In this document: in pieces, positions 7,965-39,332 of the stretch
How the letters are laid out: each line of letters opens with the position of its first letter
Position numbering within the stretch: the stretch's first letter is position 1
Assembly: GCF_003350475.1 (NCBI RefSeq)
Contig: NZ_QQAV01000005.1
Location: 186,001-250,000, forward strand
DNA length: 64,000 nucleotides
Reading direction: 5' to 3'
DNA from: Pseudacidovorax intermedius
GTDB lineage: Bacteria; Pseudomonadota; Gammaproteobacteria; Burkholderiales; Burkholderiaceae_C
Notes under the pieces: generated by a model
Databases searched by the model: none
Told to the model about the DNA's origin: nothing
Seen by the model: the letters and a program-made list of their open reading frames with translations, nothing else
Program-made: the position numbers and the translations under genes

Positions 7965-8720
7965 ATGCAGACGCCGGCCCGGCCGGTGCTGCTGCTGATT
8001 CCCGGGCTGCTGTGCGACGAGGCCGTGTGGCAGGCGCAGGTGCAGGCCCTGGCACCGGTGGCCGACTGCGTCGTGGCCCGCCATGGCATGGCCGACACCA
8101 TCGAGGGCATGGCCCGGCAGGCGCTGGCGCTGCTCCCGCCCGGCGCCCACTTCAGCGTGGCCGGCCACAGCATGGGTGGCCGCTGCGCGCTGGAGATCTG
8201 GCGCCAGGTGCCCGAGCGCGTGCAGCGCCTCGCGCTGCTGGACACGGGCTACCAGGCGCGCCCCGCCGGCGCGACCGGCGAGGCCGAGGCCGCCCAGCGC
8301 ATGGCCTTGCTGGCCCTGGCCCGCGCGGAGGGCATGCGCGCCATGGGCCGCCAGTGGGCCTGCGGCATGGTGCACCCGGCGCGTTGGGATTCGCCGGTGT
8401 TCGCGCAGATCCTGGACATGATCGAGCGCTTCACGCCCGCGCAGTTCGAGGCGCAGATCCGCGCCCTGCTCCACCGGCCCGAGGCCACCGACCTGCTGGC
8501 CCGCATCACGGCGCCGACCCTGCTGCTGTGCGGCCGCGAGGACGGCTGGAGTCCGTTGTCGCGTCACGAGGAGATGCAGCGCCACATTCCGCAGGCGCAG
8601 TTGGTGGCGGTGGAGGACTGCGGCCACATGAGCACGATGGAGCAGCCGGAGGCTGTGACGGCCGCGCTGCAACGATGGCTCGATGAACGGCCCTCGCAAA
8701 TCCAGAGCCGCCCGAAGTAG
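7965..8720 (+). CDS. Alpha/beta-fold hydrolase
   Basis: From ATG 7965 the product has 251 residues: strand VLLLIPGLLCDEAVWQ, nucleophile elbow GHSMGGRCAL (Ser), acid region LLCGREDGWSPLSRHEEM, and His in VEDCGHMSTMEQPEAV. This is a complete Ser-Asp-His set of a small esterase or C-C hydrolase family enzyme. A TTG at 7944 would overlap the Bug gene stop and add seven residues, so it is possible but less likely. The substrate is unknown; pairing with the Bug gene suggests an imported ester or carboxylate. Confidence 0.87.
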   Translation: MQTPARPVLLLIPGLLCDEAVWQAQVQALAPVADCVVARHGMADTIEGMARQALALLPPGAHFSVAGHSMGGRCALEIWRQVPERVQRLALLDTGYQARPAGATGEAEAAQRMALLALARAEGMRAMGRQWACGMVHPARWDSPVFAQILDMIERFTPAQFEAQIRALLHRPEATDLLARITAPTLLLCGREDGWSPLSRHEEMQRHIPQAQLVAVEDCGHMSTMEQPEAVTAALQRWLDERPSQIQSRPK

Positions 8721-8724
8721 CCAG

Positions 8725-8742
8725 GCGCCCGGCAGCGGGCGC
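8725..8742. terminator. GC-rich hairpin between convergent genes, possible bidirectional terminator
   Basis: The 7-bp arms GCGCCCG and CGGGCGC enclose a 4-base loop in the 23-base gap between the convergent hydrolase and hoxJ genes. There is no T-run on either side, so intrinsic termination would be weak; the position is the main argument. Confidence 0.4.
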
Positions 8743-8743
8743 G

Positions 8744-10099
8744 TCAGGCCGCGGGCGCGGCAAGCCGACGCAGCGCGACCTCGAACTGCGCGCCGCCCGC
8801 AGCGAGGTTCTGCGCCCGCAACACCCCGCCGTGCTGCTCCACGATCCCGTAGCTGATGGACAGGCCGAGCCCCGTGCCCTTGCCCACGGGCTTGGTCGTG
8901 AAGAAGGGCTCGAAGATGTGGGACAGATGGGCCGTGGAGATGCCGGGGCCGTTGTCGGCCACGCGCAGATGCACGTGCTCGTCGGAGCTCACGATCTCGA
9001 TGCGCACCTCGGGCGCCTGGCCCGGCAACTCGGACGTGGCATCGAGCGCGTTCTGCAGCAGGTTCATGACCACCTGCTGAAGCTGCCCCGCATTGCCGTG
9101 CACCCAGCAGGGCGCCTGCGGCTGCCAGTGCAGTGTCAGGCTGCTCGGCGCGCCTTTGGTGACCCAGAGCACGGCGCGGTCCACCACCTCGTTCAGGTCG
9201 ATGTCCTGCCGGGTTTCGGGGTCGATGGCCGAGAAGCGCTTCAGGCCGTTGACGATGTCGGCGGTGCGTTGCGCGCCCTCCAGCGTGCCTTCGAGCAGCG
9301 AGGGCAGGTCGTCCAGGATATGGTCGACGCGCAGCCGGGTCCGCATGGCGCGGAGCTCGTCGGCGTCGCGGCCTTCGTGCGCGGCCTGCAGGTAGTCGCG
9401 CAGCCGTTCGCTGTAGCGGCCCAGGGCGTGTACGTTGCCCAGCACAAAGCTGATCGGGTTGTTCAGCTCGTGCGCCACGCCCGCCACCAGGCGCCCCAGC
9501 GACGCCATCTTTTCGGAATGCAGCAGCTGCTGCTGCGTGCGCTTGAGCGCCTCGTGGGCGGTGCGCAGTTCCTCGTAGGCGCGGCGGATCTCGGCCGTGG
9601 CGCGGGCCACGAGCACGGTGCCCACACGGCGCTGCGAGGCGGCGAAGCGCGGCGTGCAGTTGGCATCCACCGGTACGGCCTCGCCGCCGGCACCCCGCAG
9701 GTTCAGTTCGATCGATTCGCCGCGCCGCGTCGGGCTGCGGTTGGCCATCACCGAACGGGCGGCGGCCACGCTGCCGTCGTCGGCCAGCAGGTCGTAGAGC
9801 GAGGTACCGCGCAACTGCTGATCGGTGCGACCCACCAGCTCGCACAGCGCGGCATTGGTCTCTTCGATCAGCCCCTGCGCATCGCAGACGACCAGCACGT
9901 CCGACATCGCCGACAGCACGCTGAAGATGAACTGCTGCGACTGCTCCAGCTCGGCGTTCTTCTTCTCCAGCTCGATCTCGTCGGTGACCAGCTGGGAATA
10001 GACCTCGTCCATCTTCTGGATCACGTCGACCCAGGCAGCGTCGTCCATGCCCTGCGGCGGCAGGGGCGGCGGGGCATCCATGCGGCGGCGTGGGGCCAT
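8744..10099 (-). CDS. hoxJ: HoxJ/HupT histidine kinase of the H2-sensing system
   Basis: The 451-residue protein has no transmembrane segment. A coiled region (about 35-55) leads to a PAS domain (about 57-170). HisKA follows with phospho-acceptor His210 (GRLVAGVAHELNNPISF), then the ATPase domain with N-box (MNLLQNALDAT), G1 (VADNGPGI) and an intact G2 (GKGTGLGLSISYG). In the Cupriavidus and Rhodobacter systems this kinase binds the sensor hydrogenase through its input domain and controls HoxA/HupR in response to H2. It is the last gene of the array and its ATG overlaps the hoxC stop by 1 base. The conserved glycines of the nucleotide site are present, so the signalling path looks functional. 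Confidence 0.92.
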   Translation of the reverse strand: MAPRRRMDAPPPLPPQGMDDAAWVDVIQKMDEVYSQLVTDEIELEKKNAELEQSQQFIFSVLSAMSDVLVVCDAQGLIEETNAALCELVGRTDQQLRGTSLYDLLADDGSVAAARSVMANRSPTRRGESIELNLRGAGGEAVPVDANCTPRFAASQRRVGTVLVARATAEIRRAYEELRTAHEALKRTQQQLLHSEKMASLGRLVAGVAHELNNPISFVLGNVHALGRYSERLRDYLQAAHEGRDADELRAMRTRLRVDHILDDLPSLLEGTLEGAQRTADIVNGLKRFSAIDPETRQDIDLNEVVDRAVLWVTKGAPSSLTLHWQPQAPCWVHGNAGQLQQVVMNLLQNALDATSELPGQAPEVRIEIVSSDEHVHLRVADNGPGISTAHLSHIFEPFFTTKPVGKGTGLGLSISYGIVEQHGGVLRAQNLAAGGAQFEVALRRLAAPAA

Positions 10100-31349: not shown

Positions 31350-32798
31350 ATGAGATCGCTTCGCCTGCAACTTGCCGTGTTCTGGGCGCTGCTCATCGCC
31401 ATCTGCCTGCTGCTCGGCGTGGTGCTGCTCGGGCTGTACCGCCTGAGCCCCGCCATGCAGATGAAGGTGGGCCGCGCCCGGGTCGAGCAGGCCTGCGGGC
31501 AGCTGGCCCAGCGCTACGCCCAGTCGGCCCCGCCCGCGCCCGTGCTGCAGACGGACCTCGCGCGCGTGCTGCTGCAACTGGTGCTGACCGAGGCGCCCTA
31601 TGTGGAAGGTGGCGTGTGGAGCCGGGACGGCGGCATGCTGGGCTATGCCTATCCCACCTACGAGGGCGGCGGCGTGAAGACCGACGTGCCGCCTGCGGAG
31701 CGTCCGCTGCTCGAACAGCTGGCGCGCCAGGCGGTGGACACCGGCCGCGCCCAGACCCAGCAGGTGCGCGGCAGCCGCGAGTTGCTGATCGTGGCCGCCT
31801 GCCCCTTGAACGTGGGTGGCGCATCGGCCTGGACCATGACGCGCACCCAGCTCGGGGCGGTAGCGGCCGAAGGCGGCCTGCGGGCCGGCATCGCCGCGCT
31901 GGTGGCGGCCATCGTCTTCTCGGGGCTGTGGCTGGGCTGGCTGCTCTACCGTGGCCAGGCGCGGCTGCGGCGGCTCGAAGGCGCCCTGGCGGCGGCGCCC
32001 GCCGATGCCATGCCGCGGCTGCCGCGCACCGGCCTGGACGAGCTGGATCGCATCGTCGCCAGCTACAACGGCTTCGCCGGCCGCTTCGAGGAAGCCCGCG
32101 CTGCCGCCCGCGAGGCGCAGGCCCAGCGCAGCCGCGACATGCGCCTGGCGGCCCTGGGCCGCATGAGCTCGGCCGTGGCCCACGAGATTCGCAACCCCAT
32201 CGCCGCCATGCGCCTGAAGGCCGAGAACGCGCTGGCCGGCGACACGCCGGCACAGGGCCGCGCGCTGCAGACCATCGTCGGCCAGATCGACCGGCTCGAT
32301 GCCGTGGTGCAGAGCCTGCTGGCCCTGGTGCAGCCGCTGGAGCTCAAGCCACAGCCGGTCGACCTGCCCGCCTGGCTGGACGAGCGCCTGGCCGCGGCCA
32401 GCGCCGGTGCCGCGTCCCGTCAGGTACGGCTGGTGCTGATCGAAGGCGCCCCGGACCACGTCGTCTTCGATCCCATGCACTTGGCCCGCGCCGTCGACAA
32501 CCTGCTGGACAACGCCGTGCGCCATGCCCGCAGTCCCGGCGGCCAAGTGCAGCTTGCAGCCCGCCATGACGCCGACCGTGGCCAGCTCGTCCTGACCGTC
32601 AGCGACGACGGCGAGGGCGTGCCGGAGGCGCTGCGCGGCCGCCTCTTCGAACCGTTCGGCACCGGGCGCGCCGACGGTACCGGCCTGGGCCTGGCGCTGG
32701 CACGCGAGGTGGCCTTTGCCCACGGTGGCGAGCTGCGCCACGAACCCGGCGCGCCCGGCGCCCGCTTCATCCTGGAGATGCCATGGCAGACCTGCTGA
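31350..32798 (+). CDS. Membrane sensor histidine kinase of an NtrC-type pair
   Basis: The 482-residue protein has transmembrane helices at about 8-30 and 179-200 around a periplasmic domain of about 145 residues (including VEGGVWSRDGGMLGYAYP, which resembles a dCache/PAS-like pocket edge). HisKA is centred on His278 (SSAVAHEIRNPIAAMRLK), and the ATPase domain has N-box (NLLDNAVRHA), G1 (DDGEGVP) and G2 (DGTGLGLALA). The HEIRNP motif is typical of kinases that pair with NtrC-type regulators. It overlaps the regulator gene by 16 bases. The signal is unknown. Confidence 0.9.
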   Translation: MRSLRLQLAVFWALLIAICLLLGVVLLGLYRLSPAMQMKVGRARVEQACGQLAQRYAQSAPPAPVLQTDLARVLLQLVLTEAPYVEGGVWSRDGGMLGYAYPTYEGGGVKTDVPPAERPLLEQLARQAVDTGRAQTQQVRGSRELLIVAACPLNVGGASAWTMTRTQLGAVAAEGGLRAGIAALVAAIVFSGLWLGWLLYRGQARLRRLEGALAAAPADAMPRLPRTGLDELDRIVASYNGFAGRFEEARAAAREAQAQRSRDMRLAALGRMSSAVAHEIRNPIAAMRLKAENALAGDTPAQGRALQTIVGQIDRLDAVVQSLLALVQPLELKPQPVDLPAWLDERLAAASAGAASRQVRLVLIEGAPDHVVFDPMHLARAVDNLLDNAVRHARSPGGQVQLAARHDADRGQLVLTVSDDGEGVPEALRGRLFEPFGTGRADGTGLGLALAREVAFAHGGELRHEPGAPGARFILEMPWQTC

Positions 32799-34135
32799 TC
32801 GTCGATGACGACGCGGCCTTCGCCGATTCGCTGCGCGAGACGCTCGAAAGCCTGGGCCACACGGTGCAGACCGCGTCCAGCGGCGAGGACGGCCTGGCCC
32901 TGCTGGGCGCGCGCCGCGTGGACCTGGTCTTCCTCGACCACCGCATGCCCGGCATGGACGGCCTGCAGACGCTGGCCGCCATGAACGCGCGGCTGGCGCG
33001 CCGCCCGCCGGTGATCGTGCTCACCGCCCATGCGGGCAGTGCCGGCACCATCGAGGCCATGCGCCTGGGCGCCTTCGACCACTTGGCCAAGCCCGTCGGT
33101 CGCGATGCCGTGATCGACGCCGTGCGTCGCGCGCTGGCCTCGGCCACGCCCGCCTCCGCCGCGCCGGCACCCCAGGCCATGGCGGACGACGGCGAGCTGA
33201 TCGGCGTGAGCGAGGCCATGCGCGAGGTGCACAAGCGCATCGGCCTGGCCGCGGGCAGCCGGGCGCCGGTGCTGGTGATCGGCGAGACGGGCACCGGCAA
33301 GGAACTGGTGGCCCGCGCCCTGCACCGCCATTCGGACCGGGCCGATGGGCCCTTCGTCGCCGTCAACTGCGCCGCCATCCCCAAGGACCTGCTGGAGAGC
33401 GAGCTCTTCGGGCACGTCAAGGGCGCCTTCACCGGCGCGGTGGCCGAGCGGACCGGCTGCTTCAAGGCGGCGAACGGCGGCGTGCTGCTGCTCGACGAGA
33501 TCGGCGACATGGCCCTGGAGGTGCAGGCCAAGCTGCTGCGCGTGCTGCAGGAAGGTGAGGTCACGCCCGTGGGAAGCCACCGCGTGCAGAAGGTGGATGT
33601 GCGCGTGGTGGCCGCCACCCACCGCGACCTGGCCCAGGCCGTGCGCGATGGCCGCTTCCGCGAAGACCTGCGCTACCGGCTCGACGTGCTACCCATCCGC
33701 CTGCCGCCGCTGCGCGAACGGCTGGCGGACATCGTGCCGCTGGCCGAGCATTTCCTGCGGCTGGCGGCCGCGCCGGGCCCGGCCAAGCGGCTGTCGGCCG
33801 AGGCGGCCCGCGCCCTGATGGCCTACGACTGGCCCGGCAACGTGCGGGAGTTGCGCAACGCCATGGAGCGCTGCCACGCCTTGCAGCGCGGCGCCGTGAT
33901 CGCGCAGGTGGACCTGCCCGCAAGCGGCACACCCGCGGGTGAGGCGGCGGATGCCGAGGGCCTGTCCCCCGACTGGTACGACGCAACCCTGCCCGAGGCG
34001 GTGGAGCGCCTGGAGAAGCTGCTGCTGCAGCATGCCCTGGCCGCGGCAGGCGGAAACCGGTCGATGGCAGCCCGGCAGCTGGGCATCCACCGGCAGCTGC
34101 TCTATACCAAGCTGGCGCAGTACGGCCTGGAGTGA
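32783..34135 (+). CDS. NtrC-family sigma-54-dependent response regulator
   Basis: The 450-residue protein has a receiver domain (DDD acidic pocket, phospho-acceptor Asp52 in FLDHRMPG, Lys in HLAKPV), an AAA+ domain with Walker A GETGTGKE (167-174), sigma-54 loop GAFTGA (214-219) and Walker B LLLDEIGD, and a Fis-type HTH at the C-terminus (RSMAARQLGIHRQLLYTKLAQYG). It is paired by overlap with the kinase upstream. A sigma-54 promoter begins 127 bases downstream of its stop, so the likely target is the next gene cluster. Confidence 0.93.
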   Translation: MADLLIVDDDAAFADSLRETLESLGHTVQTASSGEDGLALLGARRVDLVFLDHRMPGMDGLQTLAAMNARLARRPPVIVLTAHAGSAGTIEAMRLGAFDHLAKPVGRDAVIDAVRRALASATPASAAPAPQAMADDGELIGVSEAMREVHKRIGLAAGSRAPVLVIGETGTGKELVARALHRHSDRADGPFVAVNCAAIPKDLLESELFGHVKGAFTGAVAERTGCFKAANGGVLLLDEIGDMALEVQAKLLRVLQEGEVTPVGSHRVQKVDVRVVAATHRDLAQAVRDGRFREDLRYRLDVLPIRLPPLRERLADIVPLAEHFLRLAAAPGPAKRLSAEAARALMAYDWPGNVRELRNAMERCHALQRGAVIAQVDLPASGTPAGEAADAEGLSPDWYDATLPEAVERLEKLLLQHALAAAGGNRSMAARQLGIHRQLLYTKLAQYGLE

Positions 34136-34142
34136 GCGCGGG

Positions 34143-34160
34143 CGCTCCGGCACCGGAGCG
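34143..34160. terminator. Hairpin after the NtrC-type regulator, possible terminator
   Basis: CGCTCCGG and CCGGAGCG pair perfectly around a 2-base loop 8 bases after the regulator stop. No T-run follows, so it may be a weak terminator or only separate the regulator transcript from the sigma-54-driven genes. Confidence 0.4.
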
Positions 34161-34180
34161 TCCCTCGCGCTGTCGTGTTC

Positions 34181-34217
34181 GCGGACAACCCTTGTCCGCT
34201 GCGCAGCCAAGCGCAGC
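34181..34217. promoter_or_regulatory. Inverted repeats, candidate enhancer (UAS) for the NtrC-type regulator
   Basis: GCGGACAA (34181-34188) and TTGTCCGC (34192-34199) are perfect 8-bp arms around 3 bases. A second repeat, GCTGCGC (34198-34204) and GCGCAGC (34211-34217), follows at once. They lie 45-80 bases upstream of the -24 element, the position expected for an activator of this class. Assignment to this particular regulator is inference. Confidence 0.5.
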
Positions 34218-34231
34218 GCTGGAGCGACGGC

Positions 34232-34244
34232 CAAGTCGTTGATT
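34232..34244 (-). promoter_or_regulatory. IHF binding site, perfect consensus
   Basis: Read on the minus strand, AATCAACGACTTG fits WATCAANNNNTTR at every position. It lies between the inverted repeats and the sigma-54 promoter, where IHF bends DNA to bring an enhancer-bound activator to the polymerase. Confidence 0.55.
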
Positions 34245-34261
34245 TGAAAGGGAAGCGCCGC

Positions 34262-34277
34262 TGGCACGGGTTTTGGA
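34262..34277 (+). promoter_or_regulatory. Sigma-54 promoter of the repeat-protein cluster
   Basis: TGGCACGGGTTTTGGA has an exact -24 element (TGGCACG), correct spacing and a TTGG -12 element with one deviation (GG for GC). It starts 48 bases before the ATG of the exported repeat protein and directly follows a sigma-54 activator gene. Confidence 0.65.
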
Positions 34278-34309
34278 ACTGGTCAGGCATCCGTCAACAG
34301 GAGCACGCC

Positions 34310-35185
34310 ATGACCTTGACCCGACTTCCCCTTCGCGCCGGCCTGCTGGCCGGCCTGATCGCCGCCTCCGGCATCGCCGGTGCCCAGCCGGCGCCGCAGC
34401 CCCCCGAGCCCACCGCGCCCGTCTTTCCGATGACCGACGCCGCCCCGCGCCCGATGGGCGCGCCGCGGGCGCAGGGGGCCTTGCCCGCGCCGCTGCCGGA
34501 AGCACGCCCCGGCCCGATGGCGGCCCCGCTGCCCGAGCCGCGGCCGATGCCGGTCGCCGGTCCGCTGGGCATCCAGCCCATGGCGCAGGCCAGCGTCTCC
34601 GGCACCCTGGCACGCTGGCTGATCAACCCCAACGGCGAGGCCGATGGCCTGCTGCTGCAGGACGGCACGCAGATCAGCTTTCCGCCCCACCTGTCGGCCG
34701 AGCTGACGGCGATGGTCCGCCCCGGCGAGCGCATCGACGTCACCGGCTTGCGTGCGACGGATGGCGCGCCCATCCAGGCGCAGCAGATCGGCGCGCGCGG
34801 CCGCATGGTGGTCGACCAGCCCCCGGCCCCCGGTGCGGTGCCGCCCGCACCGCGTCCGATGGGCGCCCTGGCCGCGATGAACGCCGGCGGCCGCATCGTC
34901 CGCGTGCTCGCCACCGGCCGTGGCGACGTCAACGGCGTGCTGCTGGAAGACGGCACCATCGTGCGCTTCCCGCCGCATGTGGGTCGCATGATCAGCGGCC
35001 TGCTGCAGCCTGGCGCACCCCTGTATGCGCAGGGTTGGGGCACCCGCGGTCCGCTGGGTGCCGCGCTGGAGGCCACGCGCCTGGGCGCCTCGCCGCAGGC
35101 CCTGCAGGACGTGCTCTCCGGCAGCGTGGACATGCCTGCGCCCCGGCCCGGCCCGGTGCCGGGACCGCAGCGCCGGCCGGTCTGA
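34310..35185 (+). CDS. Exported protein with proline-rich region and two tandem OB-like repeats
   Basis: The 291-residue protein has a signal peptide (cut near GIAGA/QPAP, residue 25), a Pro/Ala-rich segment (about 26-90), and two copies of a roughly 50-residue unit: residues 97-147 (SGTLARWL ... GLLLQDGTQISFPPHL ... VRPGERIDVTG) and 192-243 (GGRIVRVL ... GVLLEDGTIVRFPPHV ... LQPGAPLYAQG). The shared core G(L/V)LL(E/Q)DGT-x2-x-FPPH resembles a small beta-barrel. A second Pro-rich linker joins them. A CAGGAGC ribosome site supports the start, and the gene follows the sigma-54 promoter at 34262. I do not recognise a named family. Confidence 0.8.
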   Translation: MTLTRLPLRAGLLAGLIAASGIAGAQPAPQPPEPTAPVFPMTDAAPRPMGAPRAQGALPAPLPEARPGPMAAPLPEPRPMPVAGPLGIQPMAQASVSGTLARWLINPNGEADGLLLQDGTQISFPPHLSAELTAMVRPGERIDVTGLRATDGAPIQAQQIGARGRMVVDQPPAPGAVPPAPRPMGALAAMNAGGRIVRVLATGRGDVNGVLLEDGTIVRFPPHVGRMISGLLQPGAPLYAQGWGTRGPLGAALEATRLGASPQALQDVLSGSVDMPAPRPGPVPGPQRRPV

Positions 35186-35270
35186 GAGCGTCTGATCCGC
35201 GCCCACGCCAACGCGGCGCGGCATGCCTGCGCCGCCATCCCTCTCCCTTTTGCCAAGAACAGGAGCATCC

Positions 35271-35813
35271 ATGCCCCACCATGAAGAAATGATCGACGTC
35301 TATGCCGTCGAAGGCCAGTTCCAGCACCTCATCTACAGCCCGCGCGGCGGCTACGAGGGATTGCTGATCGACACCTACGGCATCCCCACCCAGTTCGTGT
35401 TCGACAAGCACGACGAGACCGCGGCCGATGCCTTCGCCCACCTCCAGCCCGGGCAGTCCGTGACCGTGGAAGGCAGCCTGCGCCAGCCTTCCGACAAGGG
35501 CGAAGGCGACCATGTGGTCTACGACTTCCACCGCCTGAGCCATGTGGCGGGCAAGCCGGTCGAATCCGCACACACCGAAGGCCCGGTGCGCGGGCGGGTG
35601 GTGCGCATCAACCATGCGAAGCATGGTGTGCCCAATGGCGTGGTGCTCGACTCCGGCGACTTCGTGCACCTGAAGCCCGAGGGCTTCGCCCTGGCCGGGC
35701 TGGAGGTCGGCGACGAGGTCGAGGCCGACGGCCCCTCGCGCCCGCTCGCAGGTGGGCAGGGTCGCGTGATGGAGGCCCGCACCGTCAACGGCCACGCGCT
35801 GGCGCCGCGCTGA
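35271..35813 (+). CDS. Cytoplasmic protein with two OB-like repeats related to the upstream exported protein
   Basis: The 180-residue protein from ATG 35271 (AGGAG just upstream) has no signal or membrane segment. It contains two degenerate copies of the unit seen in the upstream protein: about residues 14-68 (GQFQHLIYSPRGGYEGLLID ... LQPGQSVTVEG) and 107-154 (RGRVVRINHAKHGVPNGVVL ... HLKPEG ... LEVGDEVEADG). The second copy aligns well with repeat 2 of the exported protein (GRIVRV / GRVVRI, NGVLLEDG / NGVVLDSG). It is His-rich at the N-terminus and centre (PHHEE, HDE, DFHRLSH). Function unknown; ligand or metal binding is possible. Confidence 0.78.
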   Translation: MPHHEEMIDVYAVEGQFQHLIYSPRGGYEGLLIDTYGIPTQFVFDKHDETAADAFAHLQPGQSVTVEGSLRQPSDKGEGDHVVYDFHRLSHVAGKPVESAHTEGPVRGRVVRINHAKHGVPNGVVLDSGDFVHLKPEGFALAGLEVGDEVEADGPSRPLAGGQGRVMEARTVNGHALAPR

Positions 35814-35831
35814 CGCGCGTTCGAGGCGCCC

Positions 35832-37157
35832 ATGTCCAGCCCCCCGACCACGCGAACGATGCCCGGGGCCCCCTCCCTGCGCATGGCGCCCTCTGCCTCC
35901 ACGGCCACGGCCGGCTCCCTCACGGCCCTGGCCTGGATGGCCTTCTTCCTTGCAGATGTGCGGGATGGCCTGGGGCCCTTCCTGGCCACCTACCTGCAGA
36001 GCCAGCAGGTGGACCAGGCGCTGATCGGCGCGACCCTGACCGCTGGCGGCTTGGCCGCCGTGGTGATGACACCGCTGGCCGGCGCGTGGGTGGACCGCTC
36101 GGCCGCCAAGCGCCTGCTGCTCGGCGTCGCCGTGGTGCTGGTGCTCCTGGGCAGCGCCTTCGCCTTCACCACACGCTCGCCGGCGCTGCTGATCGCGTCG
36201 CAGGCGGTGGCCGGCGCGGCAGGGGCCCTGCTCGCCGCTGCGCTGGCCGGCCTCACGCTTGGCCTGGCGCGGCAGGAAGGCCTGCGCAGCCAGACAGGCC
36301 GCAACGAGGCCTGGAGCCATGCGGGCAACATCGTCTCGGCGCTCGGCGCCGGCGTGGTGGCTCACCTGTTCGGGGCGCCCTGGATGATGGCCGTGATGCT
36401 GGCCATGTCGGTGGGCGCGCTGCTGTGCGTGGTGGCCATCCGGGCTGGTGACATCGACCATGCGGCCGCGCGCGGCGTCGACGCGGCCCCGCGCTCGGAA
36501 GGCCGGCCAACGTCGCCTGCGGCGCCGGAAGGCTTCGGCGACCTGCTGCGCCACAAGGCCTTGTGGCTTTTCGCGCTGACCTGCGCCCTCTTCCACCTGG
36601 GCAATGCCGCGATGCTGCCCTTGCTCAACCAGCGGCTGGCGGCGACCCAGCCGGATGCGGCGCCGCTGCTGTGGACCGGCGTGGCCATCGTGGTGGCGCA
36701 GCTCACCATGGTGCCGGTGGCGCTGTGGGTGTCGCGCAGCCGGCGCTGGGACCTGTCGGCCTTCATCTATCTCGCGATCCTGATCCTGCCGGTTCGCGGC
36801 CTGCTGGCCTGGGCCTTTCCGAGCGTGTGGGCCAACCTGCCGGTGCAGGTGCTGGACGGCATCGCCGCCGGTGCGCTGGGCGTGGCCACGCCGCTGATGG
36901 TCGAGCGCTATGTGCGCGGCTCCGGCCGCTACAACCTGGCGCTGGGCCTGGTGCTCACCTGCCAGGGCGTCGGTGCGGCGCTGAGTGCCGGGGTGGCCAA
37001 CGGTGTGGTCGGACGCGAGGGGCACTTCGGCCTGGCATTCGCGGTGCTGGCCGGCTGTGCGTTGTTGGCGTTGCCGATCTTCGTCATGGCGCAGCGCGCT
37101 GCGGGCCGGGTGCCAGCGCCAGCGCCGCTTCGGGCGCGGTCTCGCGTGGCAGCGTGA
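35832..37157 (+). CDS. MFS transporter
   Basis: The 441-residue protein has about 12 transmembrane helices, with the MFS motif A-like loop between helices 2 and 3 (GAWVDRSAAKRLLLG) and a large central loop (residues about 200-235). The first helix region ADVRDGLGPFLATYL is characteristic of a proteobacterial MFS subfamily. It starts 18 bases after the repeat protein gene, so the three genes form one unit. Substrate unknown. The 3' end overlaps the end of the convergent kinase pseudogene by 74 bases. Confidence 0.88.
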   Translation: MSSPPTTRTMPGAPSLRMAPSASTATAGSLTALAWMAFFLADVRDGLGPFLATYLQSQQVDQALIGATLTAGGLAAVVMTPLAGAWVDRSAAKRLLLGVAVVLVLLGSAFAFTTRSPALLIASQAVAGAAGALLAAALAGLTLGLARQEGLRSQTGRNEAWSHAGNIVSALGAGVVAHLFGAPWMMAVMLAMSVGALLCVVAIRAGDIDHAAARGVDAAPRSEGRPTSPAAPEGFGDLLRHKALWLFALTCALFHLGNAAMLPLLNQRLAATQPDAAPLLWTGVAIVVAQLTMVPVALWVSRSRRWDLSAFIYLAILILPVRGLLAWAFPSVWANLPVQVLDGIAAGALGVATPLMVERYVRGSGRYNLALGLVLTCQGVGAALSAGVANGVVGREGHFGLAFAVLAGCALLALPIFVMAQRAAGRVPAPAPLRARSRVAA

Positions 37158-38256
37158 AGCGGAAGGTGGTGCCCTGCGCGTCGGAGGCCACCTCGATGGT
37201 GCCCCCGTGCGCGAGCACGATCTGGCGGCAGATGTAGAGCCCCAGGCCGATGCTGCCCTTGTGCGGCGGCAGCCGGCCACCGGCGCCGCGTGTGAGCGGG
37301 TCGAAGATGCGCGCCCGCAGTTCCTTCGGGATGGCCGGTCCTTCGTTGTGCACCGACACCCGCACCTCGGCGGCCAAGCCCTGCAGCCGCACGGTGATCG
37401 GCCGCTCGGCGCGGCCGTGCTGCACGGCATTGCCGCCCAGGTTGGAGATCACCTGCGCCAGGCGGCCGGCGTCCCAGTCGCCGTTGAGGTCCCCGTCGCG
37501 CTCCAGGACGAAGGTGGATGCCGGGTGATAGGCCTCCAGCTCGTCGATCACATGGCGGGCGACGGGGCCGAGGTCGGTGCGCTGGCGGTGCAGGGTCAGG
37601 GCGCGGCCCAGGCGGGTCTGGGTGAAGTCCAGCAGCTGGTCCAGCATCTGGCGCAGCCGCACGCAGCTGCTGTAGATGCGCGCGGAGACCTTGGTTTAGA
37701 CGGGCGACAGGTGGTCGTCCTTGAGCAGCACCTGCGAGCCCGACATGATCGCGCCCAGCGGCGAGCGCATGTCGTGGCCCAGCACGCCGAGGAACAGGTC
37801 GCGGCCGTGGTGAAGCTGGTCCTCCACCGAGTTGGCCGACACATTCAGGGCTTCGTCGATGGCCTCGTTGAAGCGCACGATCTCTTCGGCGTCCGTCGCC
37901 TCGTTGGCGCCCTTCTCGGCCCACAGCCGCATGACGCTGGCACGCGCCGCGCGGTACTCGGCAATCAGGGCCAGCAGCGAGAACCCCTGCGCCAACCGGG
38001 CATCCGCATGCACCAGCGCATGCCGCGTGATCGCCTCGGAGTTGCCAGGCCGCAGCCCATGCGACTTGTCGCGCTGGGCCTTCTCGGATTGGATCTTCTC
38101 CATGTCGTCCGCGATGGCGCTGAACAGCTTGCCGGCGCTGTCGCGCAGATCGTCCCGGCTGAGCACCTGTGCGGCCTTGATCTGCGCCGACGCATAGCTG
38201 GCCCATTCGTCGACCAGGCGCTCCCGGTAAGTACGGATGAGGTCGGACAGGCTCAT
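37084..38256 (-). pseudogene. Histidine kinase with RsbRD-like N-terminal domain, interrupted by one in-frame TAA
   Basis: The reading frame from ATG 38256 encodes an RsbRD_N-like helical domain (SLSDLIRTYRERLVDEW ... about residue 115) and the HisKA box with His161 (LGVLGHDMRSPLGAIM). It then meets TAA at 37696-37698 (codon 187 of 391). The same frame stays open beyond it and encodes the rest of the kinase: TKVSARIYSSCVRLRQMLDQ, N-box (NLGGNAVQHG) and G2 (SIGLGLYICR), ending at 37084. No frameshift is involved; a single base change (for example CAA to TAA) is enough. It could be a pseudogene, a read-through site or a sequencing error. The C-terminal part alone could not be phosphorylated. 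Confidence 0.82.
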
Positions 38257-38408
38257 GCAGGGCTCCTTCCAGCAGGCAGGGTGACGCACTGCCCGGCACG
38301 GCCGAGCGGTAGGCGACACCGTGCGGCGAGCATGGCGCACCGACATCCAGCTCCAAGGCTGGCCTTTTGTAGGCGAATACGGATGGCGCGGGTGCGCACA
38401 ATCCCGGC

Positions 38409-39332
38409 ATGGCCGCAGCAACCCCCACCATCCTGGACGCCAAATGGCAGCTCTTCGTCAAGATCGCCCAGGCCGGCAGCGTCACGGGCGCTGCCGTCGC
38501 GCTGGACATGCCGGCCTCGGTGGTCAGCCGCACCCTTGCCCAGCTGGAGGCGGATGCCGGGGCCCGGCTGTTCCGGCGCACCGGCCGCGGCGTGGTGCTG
38601 ACCGAGTTCGGCGAGCAGGTGCGCCCGCGCATCGAGGCGCTGCTGCGCGACGCGGCGCAACTCGCCGACGAGATGCGCACCCGCAGCGGACTGCCGATGG
38701 GCGACGTGCGCTTCGGCCTGCTGCCCTCCACCGTGGCCGTGCTGGCCGGGCCGCTGTTCACCGAGGTGCGTCGGCGATGGCCCGAGGTGCGCCTGCACCT
38801 GACCGAGGGCGCCAGCGGCCAGCTGGAGGAGTGGCTGGGCCAGGGCCGGCTCGACATGGCCACGCTGCTGCGCGAGACCGACACGCCGGACGACGCCACC
38901 GAGCCCGTGCTTGCGCGGCTGCACCTGAACCTCGTGATGCCGCGCCAGCATCCGCTGGCCGGGCGCAAGACCGTCTCCTTCGATGAGCTGGCCGGTCTGC
39001 CGCTGGTGCTGCCGAGCGACCCGCATCCGCTGCGGGCCCGGCTGGTGAAGCTGGCGCGGGACCGTGGCGTCGCGCTGACCTGCGCGCTCGAGGCCGATTC
39101 CATCCGGCTCCAGCACCAGATGGTGGCCAGTGGCGGCGGCGTGGCCATCACCGCCGGCACGCTCGACGCGCCGCTCGCGCGCCAGCTTGCCGTGGTGCGC
39201 ATCGCGCGCCCCACGCTCACCCGCGCGGTCGTACTGGCCGAGACGGCCCAACGGCCGAGCACGCTGGCCACGCGTTCGGTGGCGGCGCTGCTGCGCACGC
39301 TGGCGCCGGGTGTGCTGCGGCTGCACGGCTGA
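38409..39332 (+). CDS. LysR-family transcriptional regulator
   Basis: The 307-residue protein has an N-terminal winged HTH (GSVTGAAVALDMPASVVSRTLAQLE, about residues 23-47 with LFRRTGRGVVLTEFGEQV) and an effector domain starting at GDVRFGLLPSTVAVLAG. It shares the motif LTEGASGQLEEWL with the partial LysR protein at the start of the window. It lies 101 bases upstream of, and on the same strand as, the cyclodeaminase-DapA-dehydrogenase-Bug cluster, which it probably controls. Confidence 0.93.
   Translation: MAAATPTILDAKWQLFVKIAQAGSVTGAAVALDMPASVVSRTLAQLEADAGARLFRRTGRGVVLTEFGEQVRPRIEALLRDAAQLADEMRTRSGLPMGDVRFGLLPSTVAVLAGPLFTEVRRRWPEVRLHLTEGASGQLEEWLGQGRLDMATLLRETDTPDDATEPVLARLHLNLVMPRQHPLAGRKTVSFDELAGLPLVLPSDPHPLRARLVKLARDRGVALTCALEADSIRLQHQMVASGGGVAITAGTLDAPLARQLAVVRIARPTLTRAVVLAETAQRPSTLATRSVAALLRTLAPGVLRLHG

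Follow-up and report, generated by a model that had tools for sequence, protein, structure and literature searches.

A putative, apparently undescribed sigma-54 regulon with exported and cytoplasmic OB-fold proteins in Pseudacidovorax intermedius

Closest described systems and the two-component locus

The locus described here lies in Pseudacidovorax intermedius, within a stretch of 64,000 nucleotides (G000:C5:186001-250000, hereafter the window) of a 5.98 Mb genome (G000). It comprises five open reading frames (ORFs) arranged head to tail on the plus strand at window positions 31350-37157, encoding a sensor kinase, a response regulator, an exported protein (EXP), a cytoplasmic protein (CYT) and a carrier of the MFS family. 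The closest regulatory parallel is α-ketoglutarate transport in Pseudomonas aeruginosa, in which the sensor kinase MifS and the NtrC-family regulator MifR act on the carrier PA5530 and RpoN is needed (PMC4482717). Our locus shares with MifSR-PA5530 the regulatory layout and the carrier. However, the abstract of that work names neither OB proteins nor a phosphoesterase or a permease of the ArsB type, and MifSR serves uptake, whereas export is presumed here.

For EXP, the closest parallel is SipA, which resides in the periplasm, is controlled by a two-component system, binds antimicrobial peptides and has OmpA as an interaction partner (PMC6370654, PMC5636140). The likeness of EXP to the SipA/VisP/YgiW proteins lies in the presumed periplasmic location and in two-component induction. 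SipA/VisP/YgiW adopt the OB fold; in Pfam, however, no sequence match linking them to EXP was found. To our knowledge, they have one OB fold, no cytoplasmic twin and no connection with sigma-54, and we know of no OB pair on two sides of a membrane in either MifSR or SipA/VisP. The tandem-OB single-stranded DNA-binding (SSB) proteins of Thermus and Deinococcus also carry two OB folds per chain and were the top Foldseek matches of the EXP and CYT models, but they differ in sequence (14-18% identity) and in whole-chain superposition (root-mean-square deviation ~15-17), and EXP looks exported.

A description of the module was not found in the open-licence papers searched. Our comparisons point to a real, apparently undescribed sigma-54 regulon, whose gene set is shared by various bacteria from soil and water. 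We tentatively read it, at somewhat less than even odds, as an inducible export or detoxification regulon in which the OB proteins would bind the ligand as partners in the periplasm and in the cytoplasm.

The kinase gene (31350..32798, plus strand) encodes a membrane protein of 482 aa with Pfam HisKA and HATPase_c domains. The gene of the regulator (32783..34135, plus strand) overlaps its end by 16 nt; its product combines Response_reg (REC, PF00072), Sigma54_activat (AAA+, PF00158) and HTH_8 (Fis-type helix-turn-helix, PF02954) domains, with GAFTGA in the translation. A HisKA/HATPase kinase thus adjoins a REC-AAA+-Fis regulator with a sigma-54 interaction domain, as in NtrC-type sigma-54 two-component systems. 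In the kinase, hydrophobic segments, estimated by hydropathy, flank a periplasmic domain of ~150 aa with Cys49 and Cys151. Both cysteines were invariant in 16/16 aligned kinases and also occurred in five further kinases; they may form a disulfide or serve metal/thiol sensing. With an orthologue limit that we chose (E up to 1e-130), the regulator was found in 12/200 genomes of the family, 11 of which also had EXP matches; the contig of the twelfth (G177) stops just past the promoter. Genome G061, where only weak partial EXP matches were seen, gave no regulator match, provided that it is within the 200 genomes.

The remaining genes, all on the plus strand, are those of EXP (34310..35185), CYT (35271..35813) and the carrier (35832..37157; MFS_1 in Pfam). 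All five genes had been proposed in an earlier note on this DNA; all were found at the place that it gave, and Pfam confirmed the kinase, regulator and MFS domains. A second kinase gene lies just downstream on the minus strand (37084-38421); an in-frame stop splits it, and its pieces, searched apart, matched RsbRD_N, HisKA and HATPase.

Promoter geometry and the second operon

The gap between the regulator gene and EXP holds, in order, a TGTC-N9-GACA dyad, a CAA-N4-TTGAT element and a TGGCACG-N4-TTG element, with spacings of 91/61/30 bp. The dyad (34171..34187), a putative upstream activator site, lies 91 bp before the -24 box, and equal spacing was seen in distant loci. A second putative activator site (34193..34209) is only a half-dyad, TGTCCG, 69 bp upstream of the -24 box; some loci have a full dyad there (e.g. 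L077 and L138). The IHF-like site, CAAGTCGTTGATT (34232..34244), stands 30 bp before the -24 box and was called by its likeness to the IHF consensus. The sigma-54 promoter, TGGCACGGGTTTTGGA (34262..34277), reads TGGCACG-N4-TTGG; its -12 box (34274-34277) is imperfect, with GG rather than GC. All of these elements are on the plus strand.

This arrangement recurred across loci. The distance from the dyad to the -24 box was 91 bp in the window, L005-L011, L013, L015, L065, L067, L068 and L077, and 90 bp in L063. In seven further loci (L058-L060, L062, L064, L070, L078) the dyad before EXP was degenerate, differently spaced or absent from the scan results; these same loci keep the spacing between the IHF-like site and the -24 box at 29-30 bp. 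The -12 box drifts among Comamonadaceae lineages while the -24 box and the IHF-like site stay: it is TTGC in L068, L070, L077 and L078, TTGG in the window, L005-L011, L013, L015 and L065, TTGA in L060, L061, L063, L064 and L067, and GTGA in L058, L059 and L062.

A pattern search of the P. intermedius genome for the dyad with the -24/-12 boxes gave two matches, and the reversed pattern used as a control gave none. We rejected a chance promoter on the grounds of the fixed spacing in many loci and the control count of 0. The sigma-54 promoter that the earlier note had placed before EXP, CYT and MFS is supported by the sequence as a -24/-12 promoter with putative upstream activator sites and an IHF-like site at conserved spacing. 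Across the family, the search matched 19/250 genomes (control 0). The module accounts for ten of these sites (G000, G003, G020, G068, G071, G175, G177, G183, G190, G232), and those of G020, G068 and G232 precede a CitMHS-type (CIT) permease. The other nine had no obvious IHF-like site in the part seen and may be chance matches, though the control was 0. At a further site with three mismatches in G175 (C5:236154, inside L118), no regulon gene was matched. Seven loci (L058-L062, L065, L067) have the CIT permease (PF03600) close to the module; in L058, L059 and L062 it is preceded by a further dyad, with GGGCACG-N4-TTGA 93 bp on. In L061, a gene for a metallo-beta-lactamase-fold hydrolase (8365-9249, minus strand) lies between the permease and EXP.

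The second match in the P. intermedius genome is on another contig (G000:C7:163169) and retains the 61/30/91 spacing. It precedes an operon of an ArsB/CitMHS-type permease, an MFS carrier and a calcineurin-like phosphoesterase; the window MFS is 37% identical to this MFS. The earlier note had called the module self-contained, and that view has to be given up because the second operon, on a different contig, has equal enhancer and promoter geometry. Three more Pseudacidovorax genomes, those of L006 (spacing 90), L007 and L008, have this type of operon with the site. Among 22 genomes searched for the permease, all with module genes or the promoter, eight had a close ArsB-type permease, and in five of the eight the promoter lies before the operon. 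In G366, a phosphoesterase-MFS-permease-DMT operon on a contig other than that of the module is preceded by dyads at -91 and -69 and by CGGCATACGACTTGCT.

The second-operon permease passes the Pfam cut-off of PF02040 (1.4e-29) and also matches PF03600 (Citrate transporter), but it is far under the NCBIfam ArsB cut-offs (164 vs 457 and 133.6 vs 415). We rejected ArsB membership, and arsenic specificity is not implied. MFS and ArsB-type permease genes also occur together in Sphingomonadaceae and Acetobacter (L143, L144, L146), with a phosphoesterase in L146 and another annotated sensor kinase in L143. The MFS proteins of these pairs are 69-83% identical to the C7 MFS, which suggests transfer.

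Several unrelated carrier families (MFS, ArsB/CitMHS and a putative YdcZ-type DMT exporter) accompany the set, and for this reason we favour export over uptake. Uptake of an organic acid or other anion would resemble MifSR: the kinase would sense a nutrient, sigma-54 would induce the carriers, and the OB proteins would be accessory binders. An NtrC-type pair with a carrier is indeed the MifS-MifR/PA5530 arrangement (PMC4482717). Moreover, both the CIT and the ArsB-type permeases match the Citrate transporter family, RefSeq names two alphaproteobacterial ones 'anion transporter', and the SBC2 copy adjoins genes annotated for aromatic catabolism. However, no catabolic gene was seen to be common to the loci, the multiple carrier types and the putative YdcZ-type exporter are hard to reconcile with uptake, and the window MFS matches the H+ antiporter family TIGR00900, weakly and far under the cut-off. 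We consider uptake unlikely.

Conservation of the gene set

Eleven related loci were compared, the closest named ones from Pseudacidovorax. In ten of them (L005-L011, L013-L015), the kinase, regulator, CYT and MFS genes stand in the same order, the MFS gene of L005 being cut by the contig end. EXP lies between the regulator and CYT in eight of these ten by BLAST. The other two, L013 and L014, gave no BLAST match with the window EXP; in G071, where the other four genes have L013/L014-like identities to the window, an EXP-profile match was found at the expected place. L012 begins inside the module, with CYT and MFS visible. The window flank genes that were searched for (PMT, DUF3422, LysR, OCD) were absent beside L010-L015, and a module bound to its flanks was rejected on this basis. 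Co-occurrence in other genomes, a check that the earlier note had proposed, thus showed a neighbourhood that is kept in related Comamonadaceae while the flanks change, so that the note's first ground for refutation, a lack of such conservation, does not apply.

The CYT profile matched 17/250 genomes of the family, 12 of them strongly and over near full length, the rest being weak cross-matches, partial matches or fragments. The EXP profile matched 14/250, and in 13 of these 14 the kinase and regulator lie upstream and MFS downstream, with intervening genes in some; the MFS of L068 is read in three pieces. CYT was absent in L068 and L070, present as a fragment only in L067, and found without the module in L066 and L133. 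The EXP/CYT pair is therefore common, not obligatory. Beyond the family, profile searches matched CYT in 6/300 and EXP in 5/300 genomes of the order, and 4/349 of the phylum (own family included). In G366, the order search found the two-component genes together with EXP and a gene for a cytoplasmic OB protein, with no MFS adjoining. G423 has the kinase, regulator, two SDR-like ORFs (by eye, opposite strand), EXP and MFS, and G425 only a CYT-profile fragment. Convergent to the G366 module copy are two chromate-transporter-type genes (PF02417; L077 9265-10364, minus strand).

EXP also matched 21 plasmid or secondary-replicon records, and we examined the loci of 15 of these and of one CYT record. 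The kinase and regulator accompany EXP in 12/15, the L135 regulator being read in two pieces; the other three (L132, L134, L142) are lone OB genes. Among the 12 loci, ten have a second, cytoplasmic-looking OB gene adjoining EXP, 11 have MFS, nine have an ArsB/CitMHS-type permease, with a fragment in one more (L127), and three have a phosphoesterase. The second OB gene starts with MHW in the three sequences inspected (L127-L129). L140 (Paraburkholderia sp. D15) presents nine genes in a row: kinase, regulator, EXP, cytoplasmic OB protein, phosphoesterase, MFS, permease, YdcZ-type DMT and CHASE3. In L128, a divergent phosphoesterase-MFS-permease operon has its own dyads and -24/-12 boxes.

A -24/-12-like sequence precedes EXP in all 12 loci, with at most two mismatches in the four that were scanned. 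Two dyads stand at about -91 and -69 in L131, L137, L138 and L139, and at -101 and -69 in L127 and L135; L128 has two degenerate ones, L136 and L140 have one at -69 (L140 another at -120), L141 has one at -91, and none was found in L129 and L130. The IHF-like site is largely a Comamonadaceae trait. Burkholderiaceae combine the gene types of both operons in a single locus, and Alphaproteobacteria do so in part. The second-operon genes are thus linked to the module by the promoter in G000 and by position elsewhere, which gives the regulon independent support.

These counts also bear on a looser explanation, namely a conserved neighbourhood in which the OB genes and MFS answer to the regulator but have unrelated functions. 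CYT outside the module (L066, L133), MHW-type copies alone (L134, L142) and EXP alone (L132) would fit it. However, the retention of the two-component genes and MFS in 13/14 EXP-match genomes of the family, and of the two-component genes with EXP in 12/15 plasmid records, speaks against it, and we hold this explanation to be improbable.

A CHASE3-type membrane protein adjoins the ArsB-type permease, EXP or DMT in several loci (L148 781-1323, minus strand; L131 7611-8306; L140 12332-12910; L141 11193-11756), and its gene is also present in G088, a genome in which we did not find the sigma-54 site. Genes for a quinol monooxygenase and an alcohol dehydrogenase lie near one copy, and those for a glyoxalase and an alkene reductase near a related MFS-ArsB pair. 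As a lead only, such redox-type neighbours hint at electrophiles.

The OB-fold pair and the possible role of the regulon

Judged by eye, the N terminus of EXP is signal-peptide-like, and a stretch rich in proline comes after it (EXP has 48 Pro among its 291 aa); CYT has no signal-peptide-like N terminus. Neither protein has a Pfam domain above the cut-off or an NCBIfam name. Among the best 120 matches in two of the homologue lists, EXP/CYT homologues, where named, are 'hypothetical', 'uncharacterised' or 'secreted' proteins.

The two family alignments match each other at 98.7% probability (E 1.9e-16). Each protein is also internally duplicated, the halves of EXP matching at E 1e-20 (e1-e2) and those of CYT at E 2e-6 (c1-c2). 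Across the proteins, the N-terminal halves match at E 5e-11 (e1-c1) and the C-terminal halves at E 4.6e-11 (e2-c2), compared with E 0.1-0.65 for 24 controls in which the alignment columns of the C-terminal half of EXP had been shuffled. This N-to-N and C-to-C matching suggests that the two-domain form is older than the split of the EXP and CYT families. The AlphaFold2 models contain two OB folds in EXP (residues ~90-168 and 185-262), with a mean predicted local distance difference test score (pLDDT) of 79.2 and most OB blocks >90, and two in CYT (mean pLDDT 85.4); each is a five-stranded barrel with a helix between strands 3 and 4. Profile comparison and structure prediction thus agree with the repeat that the earlier note had seen in both proteins; as the note proposed, one of the two homologous proteins looks exported and the other does not. 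Exported/cytoplasmic pairs also occur in Burkholderiaceae and Bradyrhizobium, where the cytoplasmic member belongs to a different subfamily.

The best fold matches of both models in Foldseek were SSB and PriB proteins, the top SSB matches having whole-chain TM-scores of 0.19-0.33 on the query; such low values mean that only single OB domains superpose, and we take the matches as a fold hint only. They indicate the OB fold, not nucleic-acid binding. A solved-structure sequence search gave matches for EXP and CYT at E >0.02 only, and 0 matches for the window MFS. SSB membership was rejected, with no SSB match in Pfam at E up to 1, as was membership of DUF5666 (PF18914), which CYT matched weakly (E 0.01; 16.5 bits vs a cut-off of 27) and EXP did not match. 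Were the OB proteins to bind nucleotides or single-stranded nucleic acid, the phosphoesterase and carriers could handle nucleotides. The low TM-scores of the fold matches and the lack of an SSB match in Pfam count against this proposal, export of a nucleic-acid binder would be unexpected, and OB folds bind many types of ligand. We consider it very improbable.

An envelope-stress response, in which EXP would bind cationic peptides or envelope damage products as SipA/VisP/YgiW do, would agree with the OB fold and the presumed export of EXP. The precedent is SipA, with its periplasmic location, two-component control, antimicrobial-peptide binding and interaction with OmpA (PMC6370654, PMC5636140). 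However, at E up to 1, EXP had no Pfam match to a YgiW/VisP/SipA-type or other known periplasmic OB family. We also know of no cytoplasmic twin or MFS in SipA-type systems, and we regard such a role as rather unlikely.

In the export or detoxification reading that we prefer, the kinase would sense a periplasmic ligand or the redox state through its two-cysteine domain, and the phosphorylated regulator would bind the dyads. IHF would bend the DNA between the dyads and the promoter, which the sigma-54 polymerase would open. The OB proteins would bind a toxic ligand, or complexes of it, in the periplasm and the cytoplasm, and the MFS and ArsB-type carriers would export the ligand or its product. 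Our guess is that the ligand is a small anionic or electrophilic compound, because of the transporter types and the redox enzymes adjoining some copies. The earlier note's suggestion of a sensing or shuttling system for one ligand stays a hypothesis. A more specific proposal, that homologous tandem-OB proteins form a matched pair across the inner membrane and hand a toxic ligand from periplasm and cytoplasm to dedicated exporters under a two-cysteine kinase and sigma-54, is doubtful.

We must also note the points that weigh against export or detoxification. CitMHS-type permeases and MFS carriers can import, and the OB fold tells little about the ligand. Just one half of the second dyad is present in the window, and at C7 this site is poor. 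Among the eight genomes with a close ArsB-type permease, the promoter was not found before the permease operon in two (G088, G869), and in one (G868) the contig stops within the apparent preceding gene, before the operon start. Moreover, in the stretches examined of Novosphingobium, Acetobacter and Sphingomonas, the MFS-ArsB cassette occurs without kinase, regulator or OB matches.

The origin of the cytoplasmic partner was addressed with a tree that took every second EXP row of the alignment. The five cytoplasmic proteins of the MHW type group together (100/97) among the exported proteins and are separate from the CYT clade (100/100), which suggests that the cytoplasmic partner arose twice, as the CYT and MHW clades. 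A single origin was not rejected by the approximately unbiased test (p 0.233 in the larger tree; p 0.386 for the G366 copy in the first tree). Two origins, if true, would imply that having the unit in both compartments was selected for. The operator and promoter geometry brings protein families without annotation and transporters with generic names together in one regulon, and homologous binding units on both membrane sides beside transporters, if functional, would represent an unusual way of handling a ligand.

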